Positions 6,406 to 56,853 of a stretch of DNA of 64,000 nt are shown here, in pieces (the stretch's first letter is position 1; each line of letters opens with the position of its first letter). The stretch comes from Lepisosteus oculatus. Lineage: Eukaryota > Chordata > Actinopteri > Semionotiformes > Lepisosteidae. Position numbers and translations under genes: made by a program. The notes under the pieces were generated by a model, which was not told the DNA's origin, made no database searches, and saw nothing but the letters and a program-made list of their open reading frames with translations. Location: contig NC_090697.1 of NCBI RefSeq assembly GCF_040954835.1, forward strand, positions 3,918,501-3,982,500, written 5' to 3'.

Positions 6406-6588
6406 TGTAACAGTTCTTGGGGTTTCCACCCCTGCCGCTCCTGCCCTGCCAGTTCATCCCTCACTGCGTGGGCTCGAACCTGGGTCTCCAGCGTCACGCA
6501 ACAGGGAACTTGCCGGCTGTGCTAAAGTAGAACTCCGCCAGTCTGGGCAGCTGAGATCCCTGTTATTAGCAGGGGCATATTTGTTACA
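6406..6588 (-). mobile_element. Solo-LTR-like element with tRNA-like segment
   Basis: Begins TGTAACAG and ends TTGTTACA, the TG...CA boundary of an LTR. On the minus strand it carries a tRNA-like stretch with an A-box-like TTTAGCACAGCCGG and a B-box-like CAGGTTCGAGCCC. It resembles the LTRs of the miniature elements at 13.1 and 36.1 kb, though diverged, so it is an old relative or solo LTR. No convincing target duplication is visible. Confidence 0.5.
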
Positions 6589-12941: not shown

Positions 12942-14085
12942 TTCTTCTTCTTCACAGCCTTAGTCCCAGACTGTCCTGGGGTCAGCTGCTTTGGTTGCTG
13001 TTCTCCACTTGTCTCTGTCGATCACATCTTCCTCACTCACTTCACATACCTCCATATTGTAACGCAACGGGGGCTCTTGCGGGCGCCCTTGCCGCATTAG
13101 GTCGGCCCCTGCACCGTCCGGGGCTCGAACCCGGGACTTCCGCGTCTCTCTGCAGCGACCTAGCCCCGTGAGCCAAAGAGAGATCTCTCCACAGCCCAGT
13201 AGCTGTGGTCCTGCTATCACAGGGAAGGGCGGTGACGTCACCCGCTCTGGTACGCCGGCTCTTACACAGCGCCTGTCGGCCGTAAGCGTTACACTCTCCC
13301 CCGCTTAAATCGCCGTCCCCGGCGAAGGGCTATCCCGCCCCGCTTCTGACACCAATGTAACACAACGGGGGCTCAGGCGGGCGCCCTTGCCGCATCTGGT
13401 CGGCCCCATCCCGACTGGAGGCTCGAACCCGGGACTTCCGCGTCTCTCTGCAGCGACCTAGCCCCGTGAGCCAAAGAGAGATCTCTCCACAGCCCAGTAG
13501 CTGTGGTCCTGCTATCACAGGGAAGGGCGGTGACGTCACCCGCTCTGGTACGCCGGCTCTTACACAGCGCCTGTCGGCCGTAAGCGTTACAATATCTTTT
13601 CTCACACAATCTATCCATCTCTTTCTAGGCCTGCCTCTTCCTCTGTTACCTTCCACCTCAAATTCCATTACCCTCTTTGTTACTTCCTCAACGTCCCTCC
13701 TCATGATATGTCCATACCACCGTAACCTCGCCTCTCGCATCTTCTCAACCACATCCACCACCTTACATCGTCTACGGATTTCTTCATTTCTGATCTTATC
13801 CTTCATTGAAATCTGCAGAATCCATCTCAACATCCTCATTTCAGTTCTTCTCATCAAGTTCTCTTCCCTCTTTCCAACTGCCAAGCATTCAGCTCCATAT
13901 AGTACTGTAGTACAGGTCTAATCACAGTCTTGTACATTTTGCACTTTAACTTTCTAGGAATTTTCCTGTCACAGATTATTCCAGTTATTTCTCTCCACTT
14001 GTTCCATCCAGCTTTCATTCTTTGTTTTACTGCCTCCAGTGTTTCTCCTCCCTTTACCAGTTTTGATCCAAGGTATTTAAAGTAT
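12942..14085 (-). mobile_element. RTE-like LINE, 3' part, with nested LTR element
   Basis: Read on the minus strand, two overlapping frames give the C-terminal part of a LINE reverse transcriptase: FKYLGSKLVKGGETLEAVKQ, then KMYKTVIRPVLQY, then TEMRMLRWILQISMKDKIRN, and RLRWYGHIMRRD with GRGRPRKRWIDCV. These are the thumb and post-RT motifs of RTE-type LINEs. The 3' end finishes in a CTT/AAG microsatellite (about 12940-12954), as RTE tails often do. The 5' part is missing, there is at least one frameshift, and a miniature LTR element interrupts it at 13058-13591. Confidence 0.78.
13058..13591 (-). mobile_element. Miniature LTR retrotransposon (TRIM) with tRNA-like promoter in the LTR
   Basis: Two 236-bp direct repeats (13058-13293 and 13356-13591) flank a 62-bp core. 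Each repeat runs TGTAAC...GTTACA. On the minus strand the core starts TTGGTGTCAGAAGCGGGG, a primer site matching the 3' end of tRNA-Leu (CCCACTTCTGACACCA) with one mismatch, and ends in the purine tract GCGGGGGAGAG before the second LTR. A 4-bp target duplication ATAT flanks it (13054-13057 and 13592-13595). Each LTR also contains, on the minus strand, A-box-like TTTGGCTCACGG and B-box-like GGGTTCGAGCC at tRNA spacing. No coding capacity, so it is non-autonomous by design. It sits inside the RTE-like LINE and is therefore younger. Confidence 0.8.
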
Positions 14086-14244: not shown

Positions 14245-15064
14245 GTTACAGATGCAGCCATTCAAAATGCGCAGGCGATACCGCATTATTTTCCGGTGCG
14301 CTGTACGCAGTCTACCGCAAGCTACCGGTAAATACCGCTAGTTACCGTAAATTCTCCTATAATACGACAAGCAAAATATTAGTATCCGGAATTACCGCAA
14401 GGTGGAGCTAATAAAGCTCAACCTCTTATGTTTGGGCTGTCGCCATCAAAGTCTTTAACGAAGATATTACTAATAGTATTAATAATGAATGACCTTGGAC
14501 AAGCTGTAAGTGTAAACTCAAAGTATTGCCCTGGTCCACATTCTTTTTTTCATTGACCGTCTTTGTAAAAGTAACACCACAGGATTTCGCAATCACGCAT
14601 TTGTTTCCAATCATGCAAAGTACAGTAATTTTTGAGAATCGATTCACCATGCCTTTCACATGCTCATAAAAGAGATTGATTTAGGAACATAAACATATTA
14701 CCGTATGCAAACTGTATTGTATACAGTATGTATATGTATGTTTAATGTCTTAACTGTGCCCGTTTAAGTATTGAATATTTATATGGAATTTTACCACTGA
14801 AGGGAAATCTTAGTGCCTAAGCATAAAAAGAATAGGAGCATACTGCAACGCATGTGAAGGCCATAAACGATATTAATTTTGGAACTTATACAGTATATGG
14901 CTGGTCTCGGTACTTTAAAGAAAACATACACACCAGTATTCCATTTCTCCCTAAACATTTTAAGCATCGAAGTCTTTAACTAACGTGATACCGGAGTCAA
15001 CAAGCATACTTTTAGAATTTGATTAATAGGGAATATAATATGGAATCGCGTATCTAAAGAAACA
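14245..15064 (+). repeat. Repeat family R1, copy A (most complete)
   Basis: Unclassified dispersed element of about 0.8 kb. It starts GTTACAGATGCAGCCATTC, has a cluster of TACCG motifs (about 14280-14400), the landmark GGTGGAGCTAATAAAGCTC, then GACCTTGGACAAGCTGTAA, GCATTTGTTTCCAATCATG and TCACATGCTCATAAA, and ends near GAATCGCGTATCTAAAGAA. Further copies lie at 30.3, 35.1-36.6 (reverse), 47.1 and 58.2 kb. No coding frame or terminal inverted repeat is evident. Confidence 0.65.
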
Positions 15065-17070: not shown

Positions 17071-17332
17071 GTAGGTAGGATTATGAATATATGTTTGACA
17101 AATTGGTAGCATTTGAGCTTATATATAGTATTGTAACAGTGAACAGAAATATTTTAATTTAGTCTGAAATATATTGTATATTTTATTTAAGTACAGCTTA
17201 AAAGGTATGTTACTTCTTTATGTTCCAAATATATCACATGCACCTAAAACATTAGGAAATTACATTTTAAGTGAAATGTAAGCGATGTCTTATCTTCTGT
17301 TTTAGCAACACCATTTGCTGGACAACTTCATC

Positions 17333-18370
17333 ATGAATTCTACAACGGAGTTTGAAGAAATGCAGTATTGTTTTCAGTATCTAGAAGGATCTTGTCCCAA
17401 AGCACACAGGACAGCAGTTATTAAAGTTGCTATGTACATATTTATGGTTGGAACAATGTTAGCTACCGTGAGTGGAAATTTAATGGTCATTATTTCAATT
17501 GCTCACTTCAAACAGCTTCATTCTCCAACTAATTTTCTTACTCTATCGTTAGGATGTGCTGACTGTCTTTTAGGCGCTTTTGTAATGCCATACAGCATGG
17601 TAAGATCTGTGGAAACCTGCTGGTACTTTGGGGACTTGTTTTGTAAAATACATTCAAGTCTTGACATGACAATTTCCGTAGCATCTATTTTGCATTTGAC
17701 TTTCATTGCTGTTGATAGATATGTCGCCATATGTGATCCTTTACGGTATAGAAGCAAGATCACCACATTCGTTGTAGCCATTTTTATTGGCATCAGTTGG
17801 ATTTATTCACTGGGGCTTGGCTTTGGAGTGGTGTTTTCTAAAATAAATTTAACAGGCATTGAGGAATTTGTGATTTTAAACTCTTGTGTGGGTACATGTT
17901 TCTTAATTTTTAACAAACACTGGGGAGTGCTGGCGGCATTACTAGCATTTTTAATACCAGGAACAGTGATGATTTCTCTTTATGTGAAAATTTTTATGGT
18001 TGCTAGTAGGCATGTGAGAGTGCTAAATGATACATCAGGGAAAATATGTGCTCGTAATGATCATAAACGAAAGATAGTAGAAAACAGGGAAAGGAAGGCT
18101 GCAAAAACATTGGGTATTGTAATGGGTGTTTTCCTCATTTGCTGGTTGCCATTTTTTATGGCTACGATTATTGATCCTTTCATTGGTTTTTCAACTCCTG
18201 TCATTCTTTTTGATGCTCTCGTATGGTTTGGCTACTTTAATTCTACATGCAATCCTGTAATTTATGGATTTTTTTACCCCTGGTTTCAAAAAGCATTCAA
18301 AATAATTATAACAGGGAAGGTATTTTGCTATAACTCTTCATCAACACATCTCTTTACAGACAAGCATTAA
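17333..18370 (+). CDS. Trace amine-associated receptor (gene 2)
   Basis: Class A GPCR of 345 aa. Starts MNST, which gives an N-glycosylation site at Asn2. The ATG lies 27 bp after a good splice acceptor. Landmarks: N-terminal Cys13 and Cys21, Asp111 (3.32), DRY 128-130, ECL2 CVGTC 185-189, Ala201 at 5.42, CWLPFF with Trp271 (6.48), Tyr301 (7.43), NPVIY 307-311. The pocket has one acidic anchor, so a monoamine ligand is likely. The stretch DPFIGFSTP before TM7 and the FFYPWFQKAF tail recall tetrapod TAAR4, but I do not assign a subfamily. It is closely related to genes 3 and 6, with shared MNST start, QYCFQ motif and LFTDK tail. It should act at the cilia of olfactory neurons by family knowledge. 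Confidence 0.95.
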   Translation: MNSTTEFEEMQYCFQYLEGSCPKAHRTAVIKVAMYIFMVGTMLATVSGNLMVIISIAHFKQLHSPTNFLTLSLGCADCLLGAFVMPYSMVRSVETCWYFGDLFCKIHSSLDMTISVASILHLTFIAVDRYVAICDPLRYRSKITTFVVAIFIGISWIYSLGLGFGVVFSKINLTGIEEFVILNSCVGTCFLIFNKHWGVLAALLAFLIPGTVMISLYVKIFMVASRHVRVLNDTSGKICARNDHKRKIVENRERKAAKTLGIVMGVFLICWLPFFMATIIDPFIGFSTPVILFDALVWFGYFNSTCNPVIYGFFYPWFQKAFKIIITGKVFCYNSSSTHLFTDKH

Positions 18371-26663: not shown

Positions 26664-27925
26664 GTAGGTTATACTATACATGTATACTGTATTACAACAG
26701 ACAATTTTATTCTGAAGGAAATAAAATGTAAACTACAGAGTAGAAAATCTAAGATTTAAACTTGCATAAAATGAGGATTATGTTCTTTAATTAGGTACTG
26801 TATACATGAATGAATATTTTCAGGTTTCTATGCAATACTGAAATACCGTGACTAAAATATTATAAGCAGAGCTATGACTATACTGTACATTACAGAAAGA
26901 AATAGCTAACCCCAAAAAAATGTTTAGCTTTTATTATATTGCATGTAAAATGGATTTAAAGTTGGATTTGTGTTGTCACATTTCTTTTCTATTTAATTAA
27001 TTTGCTGGTAATGGTAAATATTTTTTAAATATTTTTTAATAATAATTACTAGCTCAACTTTAAATATATCAGCAAATCTATACAGTAAAGAAAATAATAG
27101 GTCATATTCAAAGTTTATTAGTAAAGGCAGAACATATAATTTGCAATAAATATGGAATAATAAAGAAGAACAAGAAGCAAAGAACACAATGGAATTTTGA
27201 ATCTCTAATTCCATGGAATTAGAAACAGGAACTAATAGGACATGATTTTGAGGACATTTGGAACAATATGCCAATGTCAATCATAAACAATATTATAGGC
27301 ATAATTAAGAACAGAGTACAAACAGACAGAAAATAAAAGTTAAAACATAAGCATACAGAATATTAAATCATTTTAGATACATTGATTATATGGTGAAATG
27401 TATACATTTACCAGAACATTAGTAAGTGCAATTTATTACCTACCTTCATTAACCTGTTGTTATTTATTTTATTATTTCTTAAATGTATTCTTTCTTAGCT
27501 GCTGTAAAGTCTTGAACTTTGTCATAAAAGCTTCTGTATGACCTCTTGAAAATTTCCTCCTAACTTTCCTGAGTGTAGCTATCAACTACTGGTCATGAGA
27601 TACTTGTCTTAAATCTTCAAGTTCTTCTGCTACTTACTTTATCATTGTATTGACAAGACTTCACTCTGTTTCAACCATATTAAATAGATAATATTCATTT
27701 TATCTGATTCAATAATAATTATTATATTATTTATAAGAATTGTATTAAGTGTTTTTGTGTGTGTTTGTGAAAAGTTACAACACTGGATTATCTCAGTGCA
27801 ACCAATAAAATGTTATGTGAATGCACCTGGGGCATTTAAATTTAAATTATTTTAAATACATCTTGTTTGTGTGTGTTCAAGGAACTAACTAACTTCAAGC
27901 ACATCACGTATTGGGGAGTTTCAAT

Positions 27926-28948
27926 ATGAATTCAACAGAAGTCATTGAAGAGATGCAGTACTGTTTTCAGCACCTGAAAGGATCATGTCCAAAAGTACGC
28001 AGGCTTGCAGTTATTAAAGTTGCTATGTACGTGTTTATGGCTGGAACAATATTTGTGGCAGTATGTGGAAATTGTATGGTGATTATTTCCATTTCACATT
28101 TCAAACAACTTCATTCTCCATCTAATTTCCTTATCCTTTCTTTAGGATGTGTTGATTGCTTGCTAGGATCACTTATTATGCCTTACAGCATGATAAGATC
28201 TGTAGAAAGCTGCTGGTATTTTGGAGAAATATTTTGTGCAATACATTCCAGTCTTGATATGATGATGTCAATAGCATCTATTTTACATCTTGGTTTCATT
28301 GCTGCTGATCGATATTTTGCAATATGTGATCCTCTAAGGTATAGAAATAAAATGACCATGTTTAATATAACTCTTTTTATTGTTATAAGCTGGCTTTTTT
28401 CTTTTGCATTTGGTTTTGGGGTGGTGCTCTCCAAGGTTAATTTAGCAGGCATTGAGGAGTTTGTTGTTTCAAGCTCTTGTGTTGGCGCATGTATTGTAAT
28501 TCTTAATAAAGAGTGGGGGATGCTGTCTGCATCAGTAGCATTCATTATTCCAGGAACAGTGATGATATCGCTTTACATAAAGATATTTTTTGTTGCTAGA
28601 AGGCATGCCAGAGTCATAAATGCAGCAGCTCCAGTTGATGATAAAAGCAGCATAGCTGATAAAAGGGAAAAAAAAGCTGCAAAGACATTAGGTATCGTAA
28701 TAGGAGTTTTCCTCCTCTGTTGGTTACCGTTTTTTATTACTATTATTATTGATCCTTTCATTGATTTTTCTACACCTGTAATTGTATTTGATACCCTCAT
28801 GTGGTTAGGCTACTTTAATTCTGCCTGCAATCCCATGATTTATGGATTTTTTTATCCCTGGTTTCAGAAAGCCTTTAAAATAGTTGTAACAGGGAAGGTT
28901 TTCTGTGTTGGTTCTTCATCAATAAATCTCTTCACAGACAAATATTAA
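27926..28948 (+). CDS. Trace amine-associated receptor (gene 3)
   Basis: Class A GPCR of 340 aa with the MNST start (Asn2 glycosylation site). Landmarks: Cys13 and Cys21, Asp111 (3.32), DRY 128-130, ECL2 CVGAC 185-189, Ser201 at 5.42, CWLPFF with Trp266 (6.48), Tyr296 (7.43), NPMIY 302-306. The third intracellular loop is five residues shorter than in gene 2 and lacks its HKRK stretch. Single acidic anchor plus Ser5.42 fits a monoamine receptor. It is the nearest visible relative of the ghost gene at 32-36.7 kb, since promoter, intron and 3' flank all align. Candidate poly(A) signal at 29162. Preceding non-ATG codons extend the frame slightly but carry no start. Confidence 0.95.
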   Translation: MNSTEVIEEMQYCFQHLKGSCPKVRRLAVIKVAMYVFMAGTIFVAVCGNCMVIISISHFKQLHSPSNFLILSLGCVDCLLGSLIMPYSMIRSVESCWYFGEIFCAIHSSLDMMMSIASILHLGFIAADRYFAICDPLRYRNKMTMFNITLFIVISWLFSFAFGFGVVLSKVNLAGIEEFVVSSSCVGACIVILNKEWGMLSASVAFIIPGTVMISLYIKIFFVARRHARVINAAAPVDDKSSIADKREKKAAKTLGIVIGVFLLCWLPFFITIIIDPFIDFSTPVIVFDTLMWLGYFNSACNPMIYGFFYPWFQKAFKIVVTGKVFCVGSSSINLFTDKY

Positions 28949-30311: not shown

Positions 30312-30930
30312 ATCCAGAATACGACTACCAGGGGGTGGAGCTTCTCTTTAGAGAGGGGCCATTACTAGATGACCACATCTGAAGGAACTATAACACAAGA
30401 AGCAGCTGTGGGCATTCAGAAAACACCAGACCAGGAGTGAGACAGTACCTCCCATATTTATACTGTATGTTGCCTTATGAAGAAATATTTTATGCATCAA
30501 AGTATTTAACGAAGATATTACTAATAGTATTAATAATGAATTACCTTGGACAAGCTGTAAGCTCAAAGTATTACCCTGGTCCACTTACTTTGTAACCGTC
30601 TTTGTAAACGAAAGTACAATTTTTTCATGGACAAAAAGTAACACCACAGCATTTAGTTGATCCGATCACATATTCGTTTCCAATCATACAAAGTAAGTTT
30701 TGAGAATCTCCGGATTCACCATGCCTTTCACATGCTCATAAATGATATTAATTTAGGAATATAAACATATCATGTAAACTGCATATGGCTGGTCTTGGTA
30801 GTTTAAAGAAAAAATACACACCAGTATTCCACTTTCTCCCTAAACACTTTAAGCATCAAAGTCTTACATGTGGTTATTTTGGAAACGTTTCTACCTTTTT
30901 ATGTAGAACATTTCAAATTAATGTAGATCA
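30312..30930 (+). repeat. Repeat family R1, copy C
   Basis: Shares GGTGGAGCTTC, AACGAAGATATTACTAATAG, TTACCTTGGACAAGCTGTAA, TCCAATCATACAAAG and CACATGCTCATAAATGATA with copy A. The part before the GGTGGAGC landmark is mostly absent, and about 130 unrelated bases lie at 30345-30480. Confidence 0.6.
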
Positions 30931-35532: not shown

Positions 35533-36105
35533 CATGAATATAATTATATCGTTATTAATTTCTTTAGATACACGATTCCATATTATATATTATATTAATC
35601 AAATTCTAAAAGTATGCTTGTTTACTCCGATATCAAGCGTATTCGCAGAAAAACTATCACTTTTCTCACAAAGTACTGTATACTGTATAAACCTACAGTG
35701 ACATGGTCATAAGGAGCAAGGAGCACGTAAAAAATAACCACATGTAAGACTTTGAGGCTTAAAATGTTTAGGGAGAAATGGATTACTGGTGTGTATTTTT
35801 TCTTTAAAATACCAAGACCAGCCATATACAGTACAGTTTACATACGGTAATATGTTTATGTTCCTAAACTAATATCTTTTATGAGCATGTGAAAGGCATG
35901 GTGAATCAGAGATTCTCAAGAATTACTTTGTATGATTGGAAACAAATGCATGATCGGCTCAATGAAATGCTGTGGTGTTACTTTTGTGTTACTTTTCATC
36001 AATGAAAAAATAAAGTATTTTTGTTTACAAAGACAGTTACAAAGAATGTGGACCAGGGTAATACTTTGAGTTTACAGCTTGTCCAAGGTCATTCATTATT
36101 AATAT

Positions 36106-36438
36106 TGTAACGCTCGGGGGCTCATGTGCGTTATACTCTCCCCCGCTTAACTCGCCGTCCTCGGCGGAGGGCTATCCCACCCGGCTTCTGACACCATTGT
36201 AACGCTCGGGGGTTCACATGGGCGCCCTTGCCGCTGCCACATCAGGTCGGCCCCCCCACCGTTGGGGACTCGAACCCGGGTCTCCGGCGTCACTCAACAG
36301 GGACCCTGCCTGTTGAGCTAAAGAGAGATCTCCCCTCAGCCCAGCGGCTGCAGCCCCTGCTATCAGAGGGAAGGGCGGTGATGTCACCGCTCTGGTTAGC
36401 CGGCTCTTACACACTCAATGGTGGCCGTATGCGTTACA
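36106..36438 (-). mobile_element. Second miniature LTR retrotransposon (TRIM) copy
   Basis: Same design as at 13.06-13.59 kb: LTR at 36198-36438 (241 bp) running TGTAACGC...GCGTTACA, a core of again exactly 62 bp (36136-36197) with the primer site TGGTGTCAGAAGCCGGG and the GCGGGGGAGAG tract on the minus strand, and a much abbreviated partner LTR at 36106-36135. On the minus strand the LTR carries A-box-like TTAGCTCAACAGG (about 36309-36321) and B-box-like GGGTTCGAGTCC (about 36265-36277) spaced 44 nt apart, as in a tRNA gene. Flanked by ATAT and ATAC. A fossil with one evident break. Confidence 0.75.
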
Positions 36439-36836
36439 ATACTATTAGTAATATCTTTGGTAAAGACTTTGATGGCAACAGCTCAAGCGTTGTACATGAG
36501 AGGTTGAGCTTTATTAGCTCCACCTGGCGGTAATTCCGGATACTATTATCTTACTTGCGGTATTAAGTGGTATTTCTATCTCTTCACAGAAAAAAACATT
36601 AATGCAACATGTGAGTTCCCAGTGTTTCTCTATAGTCCCAGAATCATGACAGGAAATGCTATAACAAAATATTAACTCCCAGTCAATTTATTGTTTCTTC
36701 TTTGCTTTCTTAATGTCACACAAAACCCGTTCTTCTAGCGAGTATCAAATATCAGCATGACAGCTTGATCAAAAAAGACAGATTGTGCAGTGCTGACAAA
36801 AAAAATGTTTCTAGCTTGTCAGTTTTGGCGGTTTGA

Positions 36837-38852: not shown

Positions 38853-39094
38853 TAATATATAAAATGATGATAAAATATTTAATTGAAGGTTAATTGCCTT
38901 TTTAAACTACAGGTCTAATCCATTGTTTACAGGTGGAACAGCAAACAGCTGCTAGTCAGGCACTGTATCTCTTTCTCTCATTGTCTGTTTACAATGCTGG
39001 ATTATTCATAATTATGTGTATTGTCTTTGACCAATAGCTTTTTGATATTCCCCTTGACATCCACACAGTGTTGAACATAACAAAGTCCCAGTGC

Positions 39095-39182
39095 TATATA
39101 AAAGCCTGTTTTCTAACAAGAATCAACAAAGAAAGAGAAAGCAAGTTTCTGCAAGATGTCTTTATGAGGAGCCTGTTAAATA
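39095..39182 (+). promoter_or_regulatory. TATA box and untranslated first exon of TAAR gene 4
   Basis: TATATAAAAG at 39095-39104, then a leader with GAATCAACAAAGAAAGAGAA and the splice donor AATA|GTAAGTATT with GT at 39183. Acceptors are TTTCTTTCAG ending 40201 and an alternative TTCCTTACAG ending 40150. The leader has short upstream reading frames (ATG at 39156 ending in TGA after three codons, and ATG at 39164), which may lower translation. Upstream ATTCCCCTTGACA and GGATTATTCATAATTATG could be Ebf-like and homeodomain sites of the kind found at olfactory receptor promoters. That reading is inference. Confidence 0.65.
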
Positions 39183-40225
39183 GTAAGTATTGTTTTATGA
39201 TTTCACAATTCATTGTGTTTGAGTTCATAATATATTAGTGTGTAAGAGTTACCTCAGTTAATTATATATACACATTCAATATAAACATAGGTTAATAGAT
39301 AAATATCAATGGGCTGTTTTTACTCTGAATCTTCTGTACTTTTAGCCTATCAGGCAAGAGGAGTATTTTGTTATTCATTTAAAGCTTTCAGTCAATAAAT
39401 GTGGAATAAAAAAAACTTTATGGATTGAATCAATTAGAAATTGTGAGTATCCCGAATGTTAACCTGATCTCTGACAAAGGCAGTATTGAAGTGGTAATTT
39501 GAGTTTGTTATATAAATATAATAAGTTGTATCCCCTCTGTAAACACGCAGTGCAATTCAAACGCAATTTATTGATATTGTACATTACTTCAAACAGGATT
39601 CTATTTCAAACAAATGATTTATAGTTTATAGTATTTACAGTATGATGAACGAGAGTTATAGTTTCCTAGTTTAATTAATTTAAACAAACATTTTAAATAT
39701 TTTGCGAAAGACTACGTTAAAAATTTAATAATCTTCCCGTCCCTTGAGGAACTGCAACTTAATTGCGAACCAGAAATCATTAAGCATCAACAGTCTAATA
39801 CAGTGTATTAAAGCACAGGATTCTACTGGCATTTTAAGATTACACTTCAGAAATTTGAATCACTAAAAGATACAAAACACAATATATTATTTTGAAACAT
39901 TTAAAAAAGTGTGTACAATATGATTTATCATTTATCCCAATAAAACTTCCCCGGCACTCTAGTATTTCACATTGTTTAGGGAATTTAAGACACCCAATAG
40001 AGCATTTTTCACTATATTAAGATTTTCTTTGTTTCAACAATACATGCAGGCAACAGGAAATATGATATTTGTAATAATCCCTTATGATTTCAAGTAAACA
40101 TCCAAATATCTTTGACAAATGTTTAATTTGATTCTCTTTCTTCCTTACAGAAGTAATTTAAAATAGGTTTCATTGAAACACGTGGCTTCTGTTTCTTTCA
40201 GCCTCATTTTGTGAATCTCAGCATT

Positions 40226-41257
40226 ATGAATTCAACATTATTGGAGATGGACACAATAGAATACTGCTTTGAAGACATGAACAAATCCTGTATAAAAGAG
40301 CACAGAACTGTTGGTATGAAGGTAGCTATGTATTTTGTGTTTGGTCTTACAGTCCTTATTACAATTGGTGGAAATCTTGTAGTGATTATTTCCATCTCTC
40401 ACTTCAAGCAGCTTCACTCACCAAATAACTTTCTTGTTCTTTCACTGGCAACCATTGATTTTCTCTTAGGTTTAATTGTTCTCCCATTTAGCATGGTCAG
40501 AATGGTTGAAACTTGCTGGTATTTGGGATCATTCTTTTGCAGACTTCATACATCTTTTGACATGTTGCTTTCCTTTGCCTCCATTTTCCATTTATGTTTT
40601 ATCGCTATTGATCGGTATTATGCAGTATGTGAGCCTCTTCATTATGCAAACAAAATCAGCATCAGAGTGTCCTGTGTGTTTATTATTATTGGTTGGATAT
40701 TGCCAGCATTATACACTTTTGGAATACTTTACACCAAATCTAACGACCAAGGCCTAGAAGATGTGGTTGCCATACTATCATGTGAGGGTGGTTGTTTACT
40801 TGTTTTTAATAAGTTATGGGCATTACTGGATTCAGCTGTTTTTTTTGCTCCCTGTTTTGCCATGATTGGAATATATGCGCACATTTTCAGTGTAGCTAGA
40901 AACCAAGCAAGAATGATACAAATTATGGAAAATAGAATATTTTCGGTGGATGGCAGTAAAAAGAAAACTCAACAGAACAGGGAACATAAAGCTGCTAAAA
41001 CACTAGGTATAGTTATGGGTGTCTTTATAGTCTGCTGGGTCCCTTTCTTCATAGATACAATGATAGACGCCTATCTCAATTTTGCAACTCCTTTGTTCGT
41101 GTTTGATGGCCTAATATGGTTGGGCTATGTAAATTCAACTTTTAATCCATTAATATATGCTTTTTTCTATCCATGGTTTCGAGAAGCACTGAAACTTATT
41201 GTTACATGTAAAATATTTCACCGTAATTCATCTAGAATTAAACTTTTGTCTGAATAA
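40226..41257 (+). CDS. Trace amine-associated receptor, diamine type (gene 4)
   Basis: Class A GPCR of 343 aa starting MNST, 24 bp after a splice acceptor. Landmarks: Cys14 and Cys22, Asp112 (3.32), DRY 129-131, ECL2 CEGGC 186-190, Asp202 at 5.42 in ALLDSAVFF, CWVPFF with Trp271 (6.48), Tyr301 (7.43), NPLIY 307-311. The two acidic residues match in position and even in numbering Asp112 and Asp202 of zebrafish TAAR13c, where they bind the two amines of cadaverine (established for that receptor). A diamine ligand is therefore inferred. Candidate poly(A) signal at 41337. About 95% identical in protein to gene 5. Subfamily not assigned. Resembles fish TAAR13-type receptors. Confidence 0.95.
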   Translation: MNSTLLEMDTIEYCFEDMNKSCIKEHRTVGMKVAMYFVFGLTVLITIGGNLVVIISISHFKQLHSPNNFLVLSLATIDFLLGLIVLPFSMVRMVETCWYLGSFFCRLHTSFDMLLSFASIFHLCFIAIDRYYAVCEPLHYANKISIRVSCVFIIIGWILPALYTFGILYTKSNDQGLEDVVAILSCEGGCLLVFNKLWALLDSAVFFAPCFAMIGIYAHIFSVARNQARMIQIMENRIFSVDGSKKKTQQNREHKAAKTLGIVMGVFIVCWVPFFIDTMIDAYLNFATPLFVFDGLIWLGYVNSTFNPLIYAFFYPWFREALKLIVTCKIFHRNSSRIKLLSE

Positions 41258-41769
41258 AGTTGTCGAAATGTATAGCTGGGATAGTACACTTTGAACAATT
41301 TCAATTCATCATTATAGATGTGTTTGTGTTTATTTAAATAAAATGTTTAAGACCAGCATCTGCTTTCATTACTTACAGTATGTGACTTTTTATTGTGATA
41401 ATAAATCTTAATAAGCCTTTATCGAACTGTAAATTTCAAACACTAAAAACTTCAGAAATGTCTGATTAAGAAATTTAATGAGATACTCCAATATGTTTGG
41501 AAAAAGATGTGCAGTATTTGAATACAACAGAGATATAACTTGTGGTTGGCTGTAAGAAAAAGGAAGAATTAATTGTGACACTACAGTCAGTAATAAAAAA
41601 AACAGGCAAGTAATCTAGGGTACAGGTACATTTATTATATTGCAAGAACATTTCATTATTATATGAAAACTGTGTTCAATATTAATAAAAAATCCCTTTA
41701 TTTCTGATGTATTACACATAGATGAGAATAAAAATCTTCATGTTTACTCAATTTATTATTCAGTTCCTC

Positions 41770-43734
41770 TTTTCCTTTAATCATGGTTCATCATTGTTTC
41801 TTTTAACCCATCCAGTTTGTACTACTGCTTTCTGATCTCCTGTTCGTCGGGCAGATGCCTCAGCTGCTTTTCTGGAATTCTAAGCCCATTCGCACCCCTT
41901 TCTTTGGTTCTCGACACCATTCCGCTCCAAAGTCGAATAGCTCTTCAGCCTGGGGGCACAGCAACAGGATTCCACTCCAAAACCGAGATACCCTAGTGTC
42001 CTCATTTTTCTTGGGTGTTCAGCACAGGATTCCAATCCGAAACTGATGCTCCCCAATTCCTGTCAAAGGGCTGATTTGCCAGGGTTGTGATCTTTGGGCT
42101 CTATACTGACACCCTCACTTCTCGCCGCTGAAGCTGCTCTGACTCCAGTCCAAGACACTACGTCACCCTGCACTGCAGTGCCCTGTTCCAGTCTGTTCTG
42201 TCTCCAGTCCAGGACTTCACGTTACCCTGCACTGCAGTGCTCTGTTCCAGTGTGCTCTGACTGCAGTCTATGACTTCAAGCCTCTCTGCACTGCAGATCT
42301 CTTTTCTAGGTTGCCTCTTCTCCAGAACTTTATTCTGTACTCCTGTCCCTGACTGTTTGCAGCTCCTGGACTCCACCCCAGAATCCTTGACTTTTCCCCG
42401 CTGGTCACCTGCAGTTCTGTCCTGCCCACAAGAGGAAACTTCTGTTGTCCAGGACCCCAGGGTTATCCCCATGCAGCTGTTTGTCCTCTCCCTAGCCTAG
42501 CCCCATTCTTGCTCTTTTGGGTCCTGCCATAGTAGTTTAGTTTTTTTCTGTTATCGTTCCTGCTGCCTTCTCAGCTATTCTTGAAGTGACTTCTTCTCCT
42601 GACTCAGGGCTCTTTATCCTCACCTTTTTCTTTTGAGCTATCTGGGTAACTTTTCTTTGCTATCATTTTTCCCAGTCTCCTTTCAGCATTCCAGCAGAAC
42701 CTTCTGTATCTTTCTTAGGGAGTGAAGCATCCTGTTTCCACTTCGATGCCTGAGAGCATCTCTCTGTTAGCCTGAGCCCCTTAAGGATTCCTAGTTGTCA
42801 GGCTCTGACAGGGACTGCCCCCTGCTGCTGTGATGACAAAGGGACTCTCAGAATTGAAAGAGTACTTTTGAAAGGCCTATTGCCTCCCACCTGACGCAGA
42901 TCTCAGGAGTGCCAGGGGTGTGGGTTGGCAAACACAAGGGTCGACGCGGTGAGCAGTGAAACGAATAAGTGGGGACTAGAATATGAAACTGCAGCATCAG
43001 GAGATGCAGAGAGCAGCCAAAGAGCTAAAGCTGGCGTGTTGGGTGATGTTGGAGCTGATTCTGCTGCGCCGGTGAGGCTGAATGCCGGCTTGGATTTGAA
43101 GCTGCTATATGTTTGATGCTGAGAGCTAAGGCTGCTGCACAGAGCGAAGCTCTATCCTAATGCCGAAATAGCTGCCAATCACAGTCCGCTAGTCAGAGAC
43201 AGAGAACCTTGGGTATGGGTGCAACTGAATGGAGAGTCTCCTGAAAAGGGAGCTGGATGGATCTGAAGCACTGGCTTAAGGCTGCAGAGACTGCTGTGCA
43301 AAGCGAGGGCTGGCTTGGTGTGCCTGGTGACGCTGGACCTGAGGCTGGTGCGCTGGGCAATGCTGAGGCTGAAAACTGCTGCACAGAGTGAAGAACTGGC
43401 TTAAAGCCAAAACTGCAAACACAATAAGCCGGTCTGAAACATGAGGGCCGAATAAGAAGGGAGCCAGGCGGAGTTAAAGGGCTGTCTTGAGGCAGACAAT
43501 TGCTGCACAGCCCGTGGGGTGGAAAAAAAGGAGCCTCAGGTGAAACCGAATAGCGAGCCTCTTGAAAAAGGGGGACCAAAGGGGTTTGCAAGACAGGCTC
43601 GGCTGCAACCTCTGCACAGAGTTAAGTGCTGTCTTGCTCAGCGGAGATATGTGGAGAGCAGCTTGGGTTTAAGTAGAAAACCAGGAATTGAATACTTAGT
43701 AGAACATTTCTAATTAACATTGATATTAAAAAGA
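41770..43734. repeat. GC-richer block with tandem repeats, unknown origin (unit A)
   Basis: Starts after AT-rich 3' flank. It holds about three tandem units of 60 bp at 42137-42312 (landmark CCCTGCACTGCAGTGC) and a second degenerate repeat at 42920-43690 built on CTGCTGCACAGAGYGAAG. Small frames across it are identical in unit B only because the DNA is identical, and none looks like a protein. It may be the untranslated part of a retroelement, perhaps of the Ty3/gypsy fossil 1 kb downstream. That is a guess. Confidence 0.5.
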
Positions 43735-44607
43735 TAATTAATAATAATTGCTTACACTTATATAGAACTTTTCTGGACGCTACCACTCAGCGCTTTACAG
43801 AAAATGGGGTCTCCCCTCCACCACCACCAGTGTGCAGCCCCACCTGCATGATGAGGTGGCAGCCATAGATTATTAGGAGACCATGATTGGCAAAGGCCAG
43901 AGGGAATTGGCCAGGACACTGAGGTGATCCCCTGGGATTATTAATGAACACAGAGAGCAGACAAATAAAGCAAATAAAAAATGTCTAAACAAAATAAAAC
44001 AAAGTCTCTCAACAAATTTTTTAAATCCAATCCTGGTGTCTAACCATGTTTCATTTACCGATACAATACTGCAGACCCCGAAAACGGTGCAATACAAATT
44101 ATTTCTGGGAGAAATATAAAGAAAGAATAAAGTTTCTAGATTTCTGAAACATAAAAACACAAGAACAGTTACAAATAAGATAAGGTCATTCTGTCTATCT
44201 ATCCAGTTCGGTAGTTAACTTTTAATAGATGTTGTGAGATAACATCATCATGGAAAATGTGGTAAGGACAGCCCAAAGAAAATATGTAATATTGCTTGAA
44301 AAGAAAAGAAATAAAACATTTTAGAACACCTGAGTTTTCAGAACATTTAGTGACACACCGCAGACGTTTGAAATTAGCCGTAATAACCTTAAAAAGCAAA
44401 TGCAAAGACTGTGCCTCTTTGCTACTCAAAGGGACTGTTTCAATGTGGGTTACAGACCCCAACATTTATACATTTACACATCAATGAAACTGCTGCTACC
44501 TGTGTTTATCATACATTACAACAGGATTTGTAGATACTATATACAGCTGTCATGCAGAAATAGAGGCTACAAACAGTTTACTAAAATCAGGTGCCATTGA
44601 TGATTCA
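43735..44607 (+). repeat. 0.9-kb block, second copy
   Basis: Aligns with 30985-31873 from AATTGCTTACACTTATATAG to CAGGTGCCATTGATGATTC with scattered differences. Followed at once by GGTCCTTTGTCCTGAGTG and the Ty3/gypsy primer site, unlike the copy at 31 kb. Confidence 0.7.
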
Positions 44608-44645
44608 TTGGTCCTTTGTCCTGAGTGAACTCAAAAATGCTACAT

Positions 44646-45775
44646 TGGTGTCAGAAGCGGGCAGGATGGACAACCCGTGGCAGATTCTAGCAGACTCTGT
44701 CAAGCGCCGCCTGACCCTGTGCGGGAGGAGCTCGCCCCGCACCCAAAGTCTGTGATGGCCCTCTGCTCCCTGTGGGAGGCCTTGGAGGTAAGGGATGGGG
44801 TGCTGCACTGGGGGTGGTGGGTACCCTCCATCGGCAAGATCTGGTGGCAGCTGATGGTGCCACAGTCGCTCAGGGGGCTGTGCTCCAAGCAGTGCACGGC
44901 CAGCCGGGCGTGGGACATTTCGGCTGTAAGAAAACCCTGCAGCGTCTCTAAGGCCACTTTTATTGGGGTCTGTCCCACTGGGACATGGAGTAGTACTGCT
45001 GAACGTGTGCGGTGTGCGTGGCGCAGAAGGGTCCCCCCGGGCGCTCTCAGGCCCCCCTCCAACAACACCAAGTGGGGGCTCCCATGGAGCATGTGGGGGT
45101 GGGTGTTTTGGGCCCATTTCCGTGCACTGAGGCTGGGAACCGCTACGTCCTGGTGGCAATGGAGTATTTCACAAAGTGGCAGGAGGCCTATGCCCTCCCA
45201 GACCAGAGTGCCTCCACAGTGGCCAATGCCCTACTGGAGGGGATGTTTGCCAGGCTAGGGGTGCCAGAGGATTTACACTGTGACCAGGGACGTAACTTCG
45301 ATTCCCAGGTCTTCGCCAGAGGGTGCCAGCGCCTGGGGTTATCTAAGACGTGGACCACCCCGCTGCATCCCCAGAGCAACGGGTTGGTGGAGTGGTTTAA
45401 TCGGACACTCGTCACCCAGCTGGCTACCCTGGTTTCCCGGCACTAGCGGGACTGGGACCACCACCTCCCCCTTGCACTCTGGGCATATCGGACCGTGGTC
45501 CAGGAATCTACCAGGTGCACCCCGGCCTCACTCATGCTGGGCTGCAGGGAGCCTGCCTTCCAGCCTGGGGACTAGGTTTGGGGGTACAGCCTGTACCGCC
45601 GTAAAGGCCTCAGCCCTAAGCTGGCACCGTCGTGGGAGTGGCCCACTGAGTTCCTCTTGGTGGTGGGCGATTTCTGCTACCGGGTCCGGTTGCGAACACG
45701 GGGGAGAGTGGCGGTCCTGCACCTAGACTGCCTGGCACCCTACCAGGTCCGGGAGGAGGACCCTGGCGGGGAGGG
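44646..45775 (+). mobile_element. Ty3/gypsy retrotransposon fossil (unit A)
   Basis: Begins with the primer site TGGTGTCAGAAGCGGG (tRNA-Leu type) and a short gag-like start, then passes to the integrase region: zinc-finger-like segment near 44.87-45.03 kb and the catalytic core (VLVAMEYFTKWQEAYALPDQ onward) near 45.1-45.45 kb, ending in a C-terminal stretch LHLDCLAPYQ. Protease and reverse transcriptase are absent and the copy is broken. Its right edge is the duplication junction at 45775/45776, and no 3' LTR follows. The same fossil is in unit B, so it inserted before the duplication. Confidence 0.8.
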
Positions 45776-46400
45776 TAACCTTTGTTATGCATGACTGCAT
45801 ACAATAAATGTATAAAGTATTAATATTGTGTGTTTCTTATTTAAAACTGCTAAAGTTACATATTTTTAATACAATGAAAACAGATTTTTAAGTTGTTCTT
45901 AATGAATTTAACACAAATAATTAGTCTCAGTAGCCATAAATGTTATATAGGAAAACATGCTGCATATAATTTTAACTAGTTATTGGTATCATATACAATT
46001 TGCTGGCACAGTGGGGTTCTGGTTTGCATGGCTGCTTCGCAGTACTTTTGCCTTGAGTTTTATTACGGGCCTGCGTGTTATCTGCATGGAGTTTGTATGT
46101 TCTCCCTGTGTTCATGTGAATTTCCTCAAAATTCTCCGGTTTCATCCAAAAGTCCCAAAACATACTGGTAGGTGAATTGATTTCTGGGAAAACTGATTCT
46201 AATGTGAGTGCTGGTTTGTGTACGATTGGAATCCTATCAAGGGTGTACCCATTACTTGCTTAGATAGGCTCTGGCTTCCTCTAAGGCCCTTATTGGGATG
46301 AAGGGGATATAAAGTGGATGGATGTATATACACAGTTGTGCAGAAATGTTTCTACTCTTTTCACTCATGTCTTTCTTTCATTATGGAGGACACAAATCAT
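45776..46400 (+). repeat. Duplication-flank block, second occurrence (with SINE)
   Basis: Aligns with 38082-38707, including the SINE (about 46010-46325). Its left neighbour is the Ty3/gypsy fossil, so this is the join between units A and B. Confidence 0.8.
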
Positions 46401-51176: not shown

Positions 51177-51699
51177 CTTTAATATGTAGAAACGGGTCAC
51201 TTCAGGGTTCTTGTAAGCAAGAGGTGCTGTTGACAAGGAAGGCCTCTCTTCTAATGCAGATCTATACATCAGCAGTTAACCTCTACATGGGGATGTATTA
51301 CCTATTATGTGTTAAAATATAAATGGTTAGAATTTCAATAGTGGAATGTACTGTAGAGCTAATGTTCTACAATGGAGAAAAGCTACTCATCTGTGTACAG
51401 AAAGTTGCTTTTGTGCTTTAGTGTTCCTATCCTACTTCTTTCTTTTCTAGACGTCTTTATTAAATAAAATAAAATATTTAATTGAAGGTTAATTGCCTTT
51501 TTAAAATACAGGTCTAATCCATTGTTAAAATAATACAGTTGGAACAGCAAAGAGCTGCTAGACAGGCACTGTATCTCTTTGTCTCATTGTCTGATTACAA
51601 TGCTGGATTATTCATAATTATGTGAATTGTCTTGACCAATAGCTTTTTGAAATTTCCCTTGACATCCACACAGTGTTGAACACAACAAAGTCCCAGTGC

Positions 51700-51787
51700 T
51701 ATATAAAAGCCTGTATTCTAACAACAATCAACAAAGAAAGAGAAAGCAAGTTTCTGCAAGATGTCTTTATGAGGAGCCTGTTAAATA
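51700..51787 (+). promoter_or_regulatory. TATA box and untranslated first exon of TAAR gene 5
   Basis: TATATAAAAG at 51700-51709, a leader nearly identical to that of gene 4 and the donor AATA|GTGAGTATT with GT at 51788 (GTAAGT in gene 4). The acceptor TTTCCATCAG ends at 52801 and its pyrimidine tract is slightly weaker than in gene 4. Confidence 0.65.
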
Positions 51788-52825
51788 GTGAGTATTGTTT
51801 TATGATTTCACAATTCATTGTGTTTGAGTTCATAATTAATTACTGTGTAAGAGTTACCTCAACTAATTATATATATACACATTCAATATAAACATAGGTA
51901 AATATCAATGGGCTGTTTTTACTTTGAATCTTCTGTACTGTTAGCCTATCAGGCAAGAGGATTATTCTGTTATTCATTTAAAGCTTTCAGTCAATAAATG
52001 TGGAATAAAAAAAAACTTTATGGATTGAGTCAATTAGTAATTGTGAGTATCCCAAATGTTAACCTGATCTCTGACAAAGGCAGTATTGAAGTGGTAATTT
52101 GAGTTTGTTATATAAATATAACAAGTTGTATCCCCTCTGTAAACACGCAGTGCATTTCGAAGGCAATTTATTGATATTGTACTTCAAACAGGATTCTATT
52201 TCAAACAAATGATTTATAGTTTATAGTATTTACAGTAAGATGAATGAAAGTTATAGATTCCTAGTTTAATTTATTTAAACAAACACATTTTAAACATTTT
52301 GTGAAAGACTACGTTAAAAATTCAATCATCTTCCCGTCCCCTGAGGAACTGCAATTTAATTGCAAACCAGAAATCATTAAGCATCAACAGTCTAATACAG
52401 TGTATTAAAGCACAGGATTCTACTGCCATTTTAAGATTACACTTCAGAAATTTGAAGTTTAACATCACTTAAAGATGTGAAACACAATATATTCCTTTGA
52501 AACGTTTTAAAAAGTATGTACAATAAGATTTATCATTTATCCCAATAAAACTTCTCCAGCATTTTCGTATTTCACATTGTTTAGGGAATTTAAGACACCC
52601 AATAGAGCATTTTTCACTATATTAAGATTTGTTTTGTTTTAACAATACATGCAGGCAACAGGAAATATATTTGTAATAATCCCATATGATTTCAAGTTAA
52701 CATCCAAATATCTGGCAAATGTTTAATATGATTCTCTTTCTTCCTTACAGAAGAAATTAAAAATAGGTTTCATTGAAACACGTGGCTTCTGTTTCCATCA
52801 GCCTCATTTTGTGAATCTCAGCATT

Positions 52826-53857
52826 ATGAATTCAACAGTATTGGAGATCGACACAATAGAATACTGCTTTGAGGAGATGAACAAATCCTGTATAAAAGAG
52901 CACAGAACTGTTGGTATGAAGGTAGCTATGTATTTTGTGTTTGGTCTTACAGTCCTTATTACAATTGGTGGAAATCTTATTGTGATTATTTCCATCTCTC
53001 ACTTCAAGCAGCTTCACTCACCAAATAACTTTCTTGTTCTTTCACTGGCAACCATTGATTTTCTCTTAGGTTTAATTGTTCTCCCATTTAGCATGGTCAG
53101 AATGGTTGAAACTTGTTGGTATTTGGGATCATTCTTTTGCAGACTTCATACATCTATTGACATGTTGCTTTCCACTGCCTCCATTTTCCATTTATGTTTT
53201 ATTGCTATTGATCGGTATTATGCAGTATGTGAGCCTCTTCATTATGCAAACAAAATCAGCATCAGAGTGTCCTGTGTGTTTATTATTATTGGTTGGATAT
53301 TGCCAGCATTATACACTTTTGGAATAATTTACACCAAATCTAACGACCAAGGCCTAGAAGATGTGGTTGCCATACTATCATGTGAGGGTGGTTGTTTACT
53401 TGTTTTTAATAAGTTATGGGCATTACTGGATTCAGCTGTTTTTTTTGCTCCCTGTTTTGCCATGATTGGAATATATGTGCACATTTTCCGTGTAGCTAGA
53501 AACCAAGCAAGAATGATACAAATTATGGAAAATAGAATATTTTCGGTGGACGACAGTAAAAAGAAAACTCAACAGAACAGGGAACATAAAGCTGCTAAGA
53601 CACTAGGTATAGTTATGGGTGTCTTTCTAGTCTGCTGGGTCCCTTACTTCACAGATACAATGATAGATGTCTATCTCAATTTTGCAACTCCTTCAGTCGT
53701 GTTTGATGGCCTAATATGGTTAGGCTATGTAAATTCAACTTTTAATCCATTAATATATGCTTTTTTCTATCCATGGTTTCGAGAAGCACTGAAACTTATT
53801 GTTACATGTAAAATATTTCACCGTAATTCATCTAGAATTAAACTTTTGTCTGAATAA
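52826..53857 (+). CDS. Trace amine-associated receptor, diamine type (gene 5)
   Basis: 343 aa, duplicate of gene 4 with 16 amino-acid differences. Keeps Cys14/Cys22, Asp112 (3.32), DRY 129-131, Asp202 (5.42), Trp271 (6.48), Tyr301 (7.43) and NPLIY, so a diamine ligand is again inferred. Differences from gene 4 include Phe111Ile (3.31), Phe117Thr (3.37), Phe274Tyr (6.51), Ile276Thr (6.53), Leu290Ser and Phe291Val (7.32-7.33), and Ala218Val and Ser222Arg at the cytoplasmic end of TM5. Several face the ligand pocket in class A receptors. By hand count the two coding exons differ at 26 bases, 19 of them changing amino acids. Open throughout, with a candidate poly(A) signal at 53937. Confidence 0.95.
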   Translation: MNSTVLEIDTIEYCFEEMNKSCIKEHRTVGMKVAMYFVFGLTVLITIGGNLIVIISISHFKQLHSPNNFLVLSLATIDFLLGLIVLPFSMVRMVETCWYLGSFFCRLHTSIDMLLSTASIFHLCFIAIDRYYAVCEPLHYANKISIRVSCVFIIIGWILPALYTFGIIYTKSNDQGLEDVVAILSCEGGCLLVFNKLWALLDSAVFFAPCFAMIGIYVHIFRVARNQARMIQIMENRIFSVDDSKKKTQQNREHKAAKTLGIVMGVFLVCWVPYFTDTMIDVYLNFATPSVVFDGLIWLGYVNSTFNPLIYAFFYPWFREALKLIVTCKIFHRNSSRIKLLSE

Positions 53858-54375
53858 AGTTGTCGAAATGTATAGCTGGGATAGTACACATTGAATAATT
53901 TAAATTCATCGTTATAGATGTGTTTTTGTTTATTTAAATAAAATGTTTAAAACCAGCATCTGCTTTCATTACTTAAAGTATGTCACTTTTTATTGTGATA
54001 TTAAATCTTAATAAGCCTTTATCGAACTGGTAAATTTCAAACACTAAAAAAACTTCAGGAATGTCTGATTAAGAAATTTAATGAGATACTCCAATATATT
54101 TGGAAAAAGATGTGCAGTATTTGAATATAACAGAGATATAACTCGTGGTTGGCTGTAAGAAAAAGGAAGAATTAATTGTGACACTACAGTCAGTAATAAA
54201 AAAAACAGGCAAGTAATCTAGGGTACAGGTACATTTATTATATTGCAAGAACATTTCATTATTATATGAAAACTGTGTTCAATATTAATACAAAATCCCT
54301 TTATTTCTGATGTCTTACACATAGATGAGAATAAAAATCTTCATGTTTACTCAATTTATTATTCAGTTCCTGTTT

Positions 54376-56335
54376 TCCTTTAATCATGGTTCATCATTGT
54401 TTCTTTTAACCCATCCAGTTTGTACTACTGCTTTCTGATCTCCTGTTCGTCGGGCAGATGCCTCAGCTGCTTTTCTGGAATTCTAAGCCCATTCGCACCC
54501 CTTTCTTTGGTTCTCGACACCATTCCGCTCCAAAGTCGAATAGCTCTTTCAGCCTGGGGGCTCAGCAACAGGATTCCACTCCAAAACCGAGATACCCTAG
54601 TGTCCTCATTTTTCTTGGGTGTTCAGCACAGGATTCCAATCCGAAACTGATGCTCCCCAATTCCTGTCAAAGGGCTGATTTGCCAGGGTTGTGATCTTTG
54701 GGCTCTATACTGACACCCTCACTTCTCGCCGCTAAAGCTGCTCTGACTCCTGTCCAAGACACTACGTCACCCTGCACTGCAGTGCCCTGTTCCAGTCTGT
54801 TCTGTTTCCAGTCCAGGACTTCACGTTACCCTGCACTGCAGTGCTCTGTTCCAGTCTGCTCTGACTGCAGTCTGTGACTTCAAGCCTCTCTGCACTGCAG
54901 ATCTCTTTTCTAGGTTGCCTCTTCTCCAGAACTTTATTCTGTACTCCTGTCCCTGACTGTTTGCAGCTTCTGGACAACACCCTAGAATCCTTGACTCTTC
55001 TCTGCTGGTCACTTTCAGTTCTGTCCTGCCCACAAGAGGAAACTTCTGTTGTCCAGGACCCCAGGGTTCTCCCCATGCAGCTGTTTGTCCTCTCCCTAGC
55101 CTAGCCCCATTCTTGCTCTTTTGGGTCCTGCCATAGTAAGTTTAGTTTTTTTTCTGTTATCGTTCCTGCTGCCTTCTCAGCTATTCTTGAAGTGACTTCT
55201 TCTCCTGACTCAGGGCTCTTTATCCTCACCTTTTTCTTTTGAGCTATCTGGGTAACTTTTCTTTGCTATCATTTTTCCCAGTCTCCTTTTAGCGTTCCAG
55301 CAGAACCTTCTGTATCTTTCTTAGGGAGTCAAGCATCCTGTTTCCACTTCGATGCCTGAGAGCATCTCTCTGTTAGCCTGGGCCCCTTAAGGATTCCTAG
55401 TTGTCAGGCTCTGACAGGGACTGCCCCCTGCTGCTGTGATGACAAAGGGACTCTCAGAATTGAAAGAGAACTTTTGAAAGGCCTATTGCCTCCCACCTGA
55501 CGCAGATCTCAGGAGTGCCAGGGGTGTGGGTTGGCAAACACAAGGGTCGACGCGGTGAGCAGTGAAACGAATAAGTGGGGACTAGAATATGAAACTGCAG
55601 CATCAGGAGATGCAGAGAGCAGCCAAAGAGCTAAAGCTGGCGTGTTGGGTGATGTTGGAGCTGATTCTGCTGCGCCGGTGAGGCTGAATGCCGGCTTGGA
55701 TTTGAAGCTGCTATATGTTTGATGCTGAGAGCTAAGGCTGCTGCACAGAGCGAAGCTCTATCCTAATGCCGAAATAGCTGCCAATCACAGTCCGCTAGTC
55801 AGAGACAGAGAACCTTGGGTATGGGTGCAACTGAATGGAGAGTCTCCTGAAAAGGGAGCTGGATGGATCTGAAGCACTGGCTTAAGGCTGCAGAGACTGC
55901 TGTGCAAAGCGAGGGCTGGCTTGGTGTGCCTGGTGACGCTGGACCTGAGGCTGGTGCGCTGGGCAATGCTGAGGCTGAAAACTGCTGCACAGAGTGAAGA
56001 ACTGGCTTAAAGCCAAAACTGCAAACACAATAAGCCGGTCTGAAACATGAGGGCCGAATAAGAAGGGAGCCAGGCGGAGTTAAAGGGCTGTCTTGAGGCA
56101 GACAATTGCTGCACAGCCCGTGGGGTGGAAAAAAAGGAGCCTCAGGTGAAACCGAATAGCGAGCCTCTTGAAAAAGGGGGACCAAAGGGGTTTGCAAGAC
56201 AGGCTCGGCTGCAACCTCTGCACAGAGTTAAGTGCTGTCTTGCTCAGCGGAGATATGTGGAGAGCAGCTTGGGTTTAAGTAGAAAACCAGGAATTGAATA
56301 CTTAGTAGAACATTTCTAATTAACATTGATATTAA
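54376..56335. repeat. GC-richer block with tandem repeats (unit B)
   Basis: Copy of 41770-43734. From about 55470 to 56370 I see no difference at all from the unit A copy, whereas the part before (54.4-55.4 kb) differs at several places and by small indels. Confidence 0.7.
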
Positions 56336-56822
56336 AAAGATAATTAATAATAATTGCTTACACTTATATAGCACTTCTCTGGACGCTACCACTCAGCGCT
56401 TTACAGAAAATGGGGTCTCCCCTCCACCACCACCAGTGTGCAGCCCCACCTGGATGATGAGGTGGCAGCCATAGATTATTGGGAGACCATGATTGGCAAA
56501 GGCCAGAGGGAAATTTGGCCAGGACACTGAGGTGATCCCCTGGGATTATTAATGAACACAGAGAGCAGACAAATAAAGCAAATAAAAAATGTCTAAACAA
56601 AATAAAACAAAGTCTCTCAATAAACTTTTTAAATCCAATCCTGGTGTCCAACCATGTTTCATTTACCGATACAATACTGCAATACACATCAATGAAACTG
56701 CTGCTACCTGTGTTTATCATACATTTCTACAGGATTTGTAGATACTATATACAGCTGTCAAGCAGAAATAGAGGCTACAAACAGTTTACTAAAATCAGGT
56801 GCCATTGATGATTCATTGGTCC
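56336..56822 (+). repeat. 0.9-kb block, third copy, internally shortened
   Basis: Matches 43735-44607 at both ends but lacks about 400 bp in the middle: the sequence passes from CGATACAATACTGCA straight to ATACACATCAATGAAACTGC. Confidence 0.7.
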
Positions 56823-56853
56823 TTTGTCCTGAGTGAACTCAAAAATGCTACAT

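Follow-up and report, generated by a model that had tools for sequence, protein, structure and literature searches.

The window, by which we mean the whole 64,000-nucleotide stretch of Lepisosteus oculatus DNA analysed here, carries five intronless reading frames for rhodopsin-type receptors (Pfam 7tm_1; positions 828-1934, 17306-18370, 27893-28948, 40157-41257 and 52727-53857). When one of these was compared with solved structures, the closest was trace amine-associated receptor 13a, which we take to be a zebrafish receptor. A sixth frame of similar length (62633-63694) is 79% identical over most of its DNA to the frame at 17.4-18.4 kb. A local duplication links positions 38870-45542 and 51469-57749 (approximately 96.5% identical), and in each duplicate a single receptor frame is accompanied by a single broken relic of gypsy type. 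On the minus strand, positions 13591-13058 are occupied by a 534-bp element with an LTR-core-LTR layout (copy 1), and two further copies of this element are found within the window (Table 1).

Table 1. Positions of the three element copies, their parts and a gypsy-type relic in the window.
Feature	Positions	Strand	Remarks
Copy 1, complete miniature LTR element	13058..13591	-	534 bp; no gene recognised
5' LTR of copy 1	13356..13591	-	236 bp
3' LTR of copy 1	13058..13293	-	236 bp
Internal core of copy 1	13294..13355	-	62 bp
Primer-binding site TGGTGTCAGAAG	13343..13354	-	putative tRNA-Leu type
Polypurine tract AAGCGGGGGAGAG	13294..13306	-	adjoins 3' LTR
Target duplication ATAT, one side of copy 1	13054..13057
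Target duplication ATAT, other side of copy 1	13592..13595
A box TGGCTCACGGGG, 5' LTR of copy 1	13462..13473	-
B box GGTTCGAGCCT, 5' LTR of copy 1	13419..13429	-	1 mismatch
A box TGGCTCACGGGG, 3' LTR of copy 1	13164..13175	-
B box GGTTCGAGCCC, 3' LTR of copy 1	13121..13131	-
CRE/ATF-type palindrome TGACGTCA, U3 of 5' LTR	13531..13538	-	putative role
CRE/ATF-type palindrome TGACGTCA, U3 of 3' LTR	13233..13240	-	putative role
TATA-like patch TGATAGC, 5' LTR	13511..13517	-	putative role
TATA-like patch TGATAGC, 3' LTR	13213..13219	-	putative role
Copy 2	36106..36438	-	one full LTR, core, 3' LTR remnant
Full LTR of copy 2	36438-36198	-	241 bp
Core of copy 2	36197-36136	-	62 bp
3' LTR remnant of copy 2	36135-36106	-	30 bp; boxes absent
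A box TAGCTCAACAGG, copy 2	36309..36320	-
B box GGTTCGAGTCC, copy 2	36266..36276	-
Third copy, diverged, solo-LTR-like, TGTAAC...GTTACA	6406..6588	-	183 bp
Boxes of third copy	A 6524-6513, B 6480-6470	-	44 nt apart
Broken gypsy-type relic	~44640..45780	+	same primer site, purine-rich 3' end

Structure and insertion of the element

The two LTRs of copy 1 have TG...CA ends and are identical at 222 of 236 positions without a gap, and the element is bordered by ATAT on both sides. On the element strand the core opens with a single T followed by TGGTGTCAGAAG, which we take to be the complement of a vertebrate tRNA-Leu 3' end and on which the assignment of the primer type is based, and it closes with AAGCGGGGGAGAG. 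Pfam searches at E values up to 0.1 returned no match in the two stop-to-stop frames of at least 150 aa with which copy 1 overlaps. If the flanks of copy 1 are joined, one frame of the host sequence is open across the joint; judging by eye, we take this host to be the 3' part of a LINE. A hairpin predicted in the core of copy 1 was considered as a shared RNA signal and dropped, as none is predicted in copy 2.

All 14 differences between the LTRs of copy 1 fall at positions 173-230, on the U5 side, while the first 172 positions are identical (chance of about 1e-8 if differences were spread uniformly). Copy 2 sides with the 3' LTR at seven of these sites and with the 5' LTR at four, and differs from both at three. 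The clustering suggests gene conversion from another copy.

Copy 2 retains a core identical to that of copy 1 at 56 of 62 positions, and an internal deletion has left only the two ends of its 3' LTR. It is flanked by ATAT (36102-36105) and ATAC (36439-36442), and its host is a dispersed repeat family with members at 14360-14723, 30495-30880, 35731-36565 and 58326-58587. The flanks of copy 2 were joined, leaving out the element and one duplication, and aligned to repeats of the window. In all three alignments (30495-30880, 14360-14723 and 58326-58506) the empty site contains a single ATAC with no gap at the joint, and copy 2 therefore arrived by insertion. The third copy is considerably diverged (identical at 120 of 180 aligned positions to copy 2 and at 104 of 174 to copy 1), and its 4-bp flanks, CAAG and TGAG, are mismatched, so that it shows no target duplication. 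Searches with patterns of the element gave no match in collections of viral contigs (two), genome contigs (one) and plasmids; by their descriptions these contain no fish genomes, and the result consequently says nothing about fish.

Promoter boxes in the LTRs

The A and B boxes of tRNA-type Pol III promoters follow the consensus TRGCNNANNNGG and GGTTCGANNCC, respectively, and these were used to scan the element strand. The 3' LTR of copy 1 and the full LTR of copy 2 match without mismatch and the 5' LTR of copy 1 with one, and the A-B spacing is 44 nt in each of these three LTRs. The boxes of the third copy also show no mismatch at the same spacing, such that four of the five LTRs or LTR-like copies carry boxes with zero or one mismatch 44 nt apart, the fifth being the 30-bp deletion remnant. 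Dinucleotide shuffling, 3000 times for each of the three LTRs of copies 1 and 2 that carry boxes, never produced a box pair equal to the real one on either strand. When the whole window was scanned, allowing a distance of 30-60 nt between the boxes and up to two mismatches, eight pairs emerged, and none of them lies outside the three copies. Three are weaker, with two mismatches, and are located in the LTRs of copy 1, both of which have such pairs on the opposite strand; the B box itself is almost a palindrome. The first-pass annotation had described two 236-bp TG...CA repeats around a 62-bp core, with a purine tract and a 4-bp duplication, and had placed A-box-like and B-box-like motifs at tRNA spacing on the element's own strand; both parts of this description are confirmed.

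Between copies 1 and 2 the LTRs have diverged at 45 to 48 of 234 aligned positions. When copy 2 and the third copy are aligned with the 3' LTR of copy 1, 15 of the 16 specified box letters are invariant in the shared ungapped columns, and the same holds for 82 of the 157 remaining columns (one-sided Fisher P = 0.0008). This test is partly selected in favour of the boxes because the third copy was found by similarity; the sixteenth box letter varies inside the consensus (A or G). For the tRNA-like block as a whole, conservation does not significantly exceed that of the remainder (42 of 66 columns invariant versus 55 of 107, P = 0.16). We therefore rejected the block as a conserved module, and the box letters alone stand out.

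The LTR region is tRNA-promoter-like and is not a tRNA. ARAGORN identified no tRNA in the whole window, and Rfam searches at E values up to 5 gave copies 1 and 2 one weak match each, to unrelated families, and none to tRNA. A full tRNA gene in the LTR was rejected as neither program recognises a cloverleaf. The tRNA-like region folds no better than shuffled sequences (z = 0.12, -1.26 and -0.58 for copies 1, 2 and 3). Copies 1 and 2 likewise show no Rfam match to 5S rRNA at E up to 5, and at the gathering score no Rfam family matches anywhere in the window. A tRNA-derived SINE (SINE2) is a single unit with a LINE-type or A-rich tail and a variable target duplication. The element instead has an LTR-core-LTR layout and a 4-bp duplication, and no such tail was seen.

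Upstream motifs and terminators

A perfect CRE, TGACGTCA, occupies LTR positions 54-61 in copy 1. The equivalent site in copy 2 is TGACATCA, with one CpG-type change, and the third copy does not contain this region. For the three LTRs, 5, 6 and 7 of 3000 shuffles have TGACGTCA at some position, the motif having been picked post hoc. An A+T-richer patch lies at LTR positions 75-81, reading TGATAGC in copies 1 and 2 and TAATAAC in the third copy. If the start is assumed to be at LTR position 105, 14 nt before the A box, the CRE would be at -51/-44 and the TATA-like patch at -30/-24; placing the start at any point from 101 to 109 shifts the motifs by no more than 4 nt.

The element strand of copies 1, 2 and 3 contains no TTTT and neither AATAAA nor ATTAAA. 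Absence of TTTT is expected by chance, being found in 3464 of 5000 shuffles. The first downstream TTTT occurs at +141 for copy 1 and at +96 for copy 2. TATAA and TATAT are absent from the element strand of copy 1, and TATA(A/T) occurs once among the three copies, at the start of the copy 2 remnant (TATAAC, altered from the TGTAAC of the LTR).

A gypsy-type relic

The 21-base string TACATTGGTGTCAGAAGCGGG occurs both in the relic at 44.6-45.8 kb and across the LTR end and core of copy 1. The duplicate of the relic (57.2-58.0 kb) contains, in frame 57210-57977, a match to the Pfam rve integrase core (E = 2.3e-11); two frames of 44629-45723 and frame 56833-57462 gave no Pfam match. The 4-bp duplication together with this string, which spans the LTR end and primer site, makes a gypsy-type helper plausible, as was suggested at first pass. 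The sequence of the relic supports its reading as an example of the kind of helper that may be involved, as distinct from a specific partner.

Discussion

The element is very probably a TRIM of Helenus type, a non-autonomous LTR retrotransposon with a predicted tRNA-type internal Pol III promoter in its LTRs. TRIMs with tRNA-like LTRs were named Helenus by Kojima 2024 (PMC10886601), where they are described from fungi, six animal phyla (with wasps and bivalves among the hosts) and one plant species. The fishes mentioned there include zebrafish, carps, other cypriniforms, a catfish, milkfish, sterlet, paddlefish and coelacanth, and zebrafish LTR-11_DR and coelacanth LTR1_LCh and LTR2_Lch are given as examples (PMC10886601). 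The arrangement was thus already in print, having been published in fishes in 2024 (PMC10886601). The first-pass proposal of a TRIM with a tRNA-type promoter in its LTRs stands as regards layout, boxes and LTR-like insertion, and its suggestion that the arrangement might be new for fish does not. Among the matches listed in a literature search covering mostly papers outside subscription, PMC10886601 alone carried the names Helenus and LTR-11_DR.

The resemblance extends to several further features given for Helenus in PMC10886601. Those elements are 311-1263 bp long, a range which includes our 534 bp, the animal families make 4-bp target duplications, the vertebrate families use tRNA-His, -Leu or -Lys as primers, and a gypsy helper is inferred for the animal families (PMC10886601). 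The element described here is likewise miniature and gene-less, with tRNA-like A and B boxes in its LTRs, a primer site apparently of tRNA-Leu type, a purine tract and a plausible gypsy-type helper. The duplication is ATAT/ATAT in copy 1 and ATAT/ATAC in copy 2, and is lacking in the third copy. The Helenus boxes are given as TRGCY ... YGG (A box, most families) and GGTTC (B box) in PMC10886601. GGTTC is present in all four box-bearing LTRs or LTR-like copies (copies 1, 2 and third), and the three LTRs of copies 1 and 2 fit TRGCY (TGGCT, TAGCT) where the third copy has TAGCA. By eye, YGG corresponds to CGG in the third copy, to a CGG lying 1-2 bases earlier in copy 1, and to AGG in copy 2. On the basis of its layout and these described features we assign copy 1 to Helenus as a new copy, possibly of a new family. 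For its upstream CRE and TATA-like motifs the published account offers no discussion under those words: CREB, TATA and cAMP are absent as words from the main text of PMC10886601. That paper itself states that Pol III activity of Helenus is without experimental validation, and there too the origin as a SINE-LTR chimera is offered as speculation (PMC10886601).

Other known systems share parts of this organisation. Cassandra, a plant TRIM, also has a Pol III promoter in its LTRs, but as related in PMC10886601 this is of 5S type and is accompanied by conserved terminators, whereas our element has tRNA-type boxes and no TTTT. Ajax, a nemertean TRIM with partial 5S sequence, resembles it in having a promoter derived from a small RNA in the LTRs and a tRNA-Leu primer, but has 5S-derived boxes and 5-bp target duplications (PMC10886601). 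The 5S-derived LTR sequence that marks both of these is not found by Rfam (E up to 5) in copies 1 and 2. The genes for 7SL, EBER and 4.5SH RNA, for which a CRE near -50 and a TATA-like box near -30/-24 are reported (PMC7279448), offer a parallel of a different kind, combining a type 2 Pol III promoter with upstream motifs much as the LTR would if transcription starts approximately 14 nt before the A box. These genes are not LTR elements, however, and the start used here is an assumed one.

These features can be assembled into a replication scheme. Transcription by Pol III would begin in the 5' LTR, some 10-20 nt before the A box. As the element has no TTTT, the polymerase would continue through R-U5, the core and the whole 3' LTR until it met the first run of T in the flanking DNA. 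A transcript that overran the 3' LTR could still serve, as standard LTR replication requires only that the strong-stop cDNA find matching sequence in the 3' LTR. First-strand synthesis would be primed at the core by a tRNA of Leu type, the strong-stop cDNA would jump to that matching sequence and the purine tract would prime the second strand. Insertion with a 4-bp duplication is observed; a gypsy-type integrase acting in trans would presumably carry it out.

A tandem pair of tRNA-derived SINEs would also give two direct repeats with a tRNA-type promoter in each, as seen in the 236-bp repeats here. A core of the same length, 62 bp, in both copies, the TG...CA ends, primer site, purine tract and 4-bp duplication, and the lack of an A-rich tail all argue against such a pair, and copy 2 and its empty site rule it out; we regard it as highly improbable. 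Chance resemblance of a local duplication to an LTR element deserves mention since the window does hold a large duplication (38.9-45.5 kb versus 51.5-57.7 kb), but the DNA around copy 2 is different and its empty site is precise. Copy 2 and that site exclude this origin also, and its probability is close to negligible.

A more substantial alternative, although we think it unlikely, is that Pol II transcribes an ordinary TRIM in whose LTR the head of a SINE or tRNA was captured in the past, leaving the boxes as a passive relic. It would accommodate the missing tRNA structure (Rfam, folding), the unremarkable conservation of the tRNA-like block and the CRE, which is a typical constituent of Pol II LTR promoters. 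Against this, the boxes and their 44-nt spacing have been kept in four of five cases despite the divergence between the LTRs of copies 1 and 2, and the polyadenylation-type motifs AATAAA and ATTAAA are missing from all three copies, as are TATAA and TATAT from copy 1. Our preferred reading remains a Helenus-type TRIM with a predicted Pol III promoter. A bolder extension of it, which we put forward with considerable doubt, is that the LTR constitutes a complete Pol III unit, with a CRE near -50, a TATA-like patch near -30/-24 and internal A and B boxes, which would free a tRNA-type promoter from dependence on flanking DNA. Because U3 is copied at every insertion, each new copy would land with its own upstream activators, and because there is no internal terminator Pol III could reach the 3' LTR.

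The window confirms a published kind of TRIM from raw sequence: empty sites document precise insertion, and three diverged copies within 64 kb have retained the box spacing. To the published kind it adds a perfect CRE and a TATA-like patch in the U3 of copy 1, and an element free of TTTT. SINE copies are said in PMC7279448 to be without a CRE or upstream activators. Should the CRE and TATA-like patch prove functional, such TRIMs, which bring the upstream half of the promoter along at each insertion, would offer a way to test why SINE copies are mostly silent.
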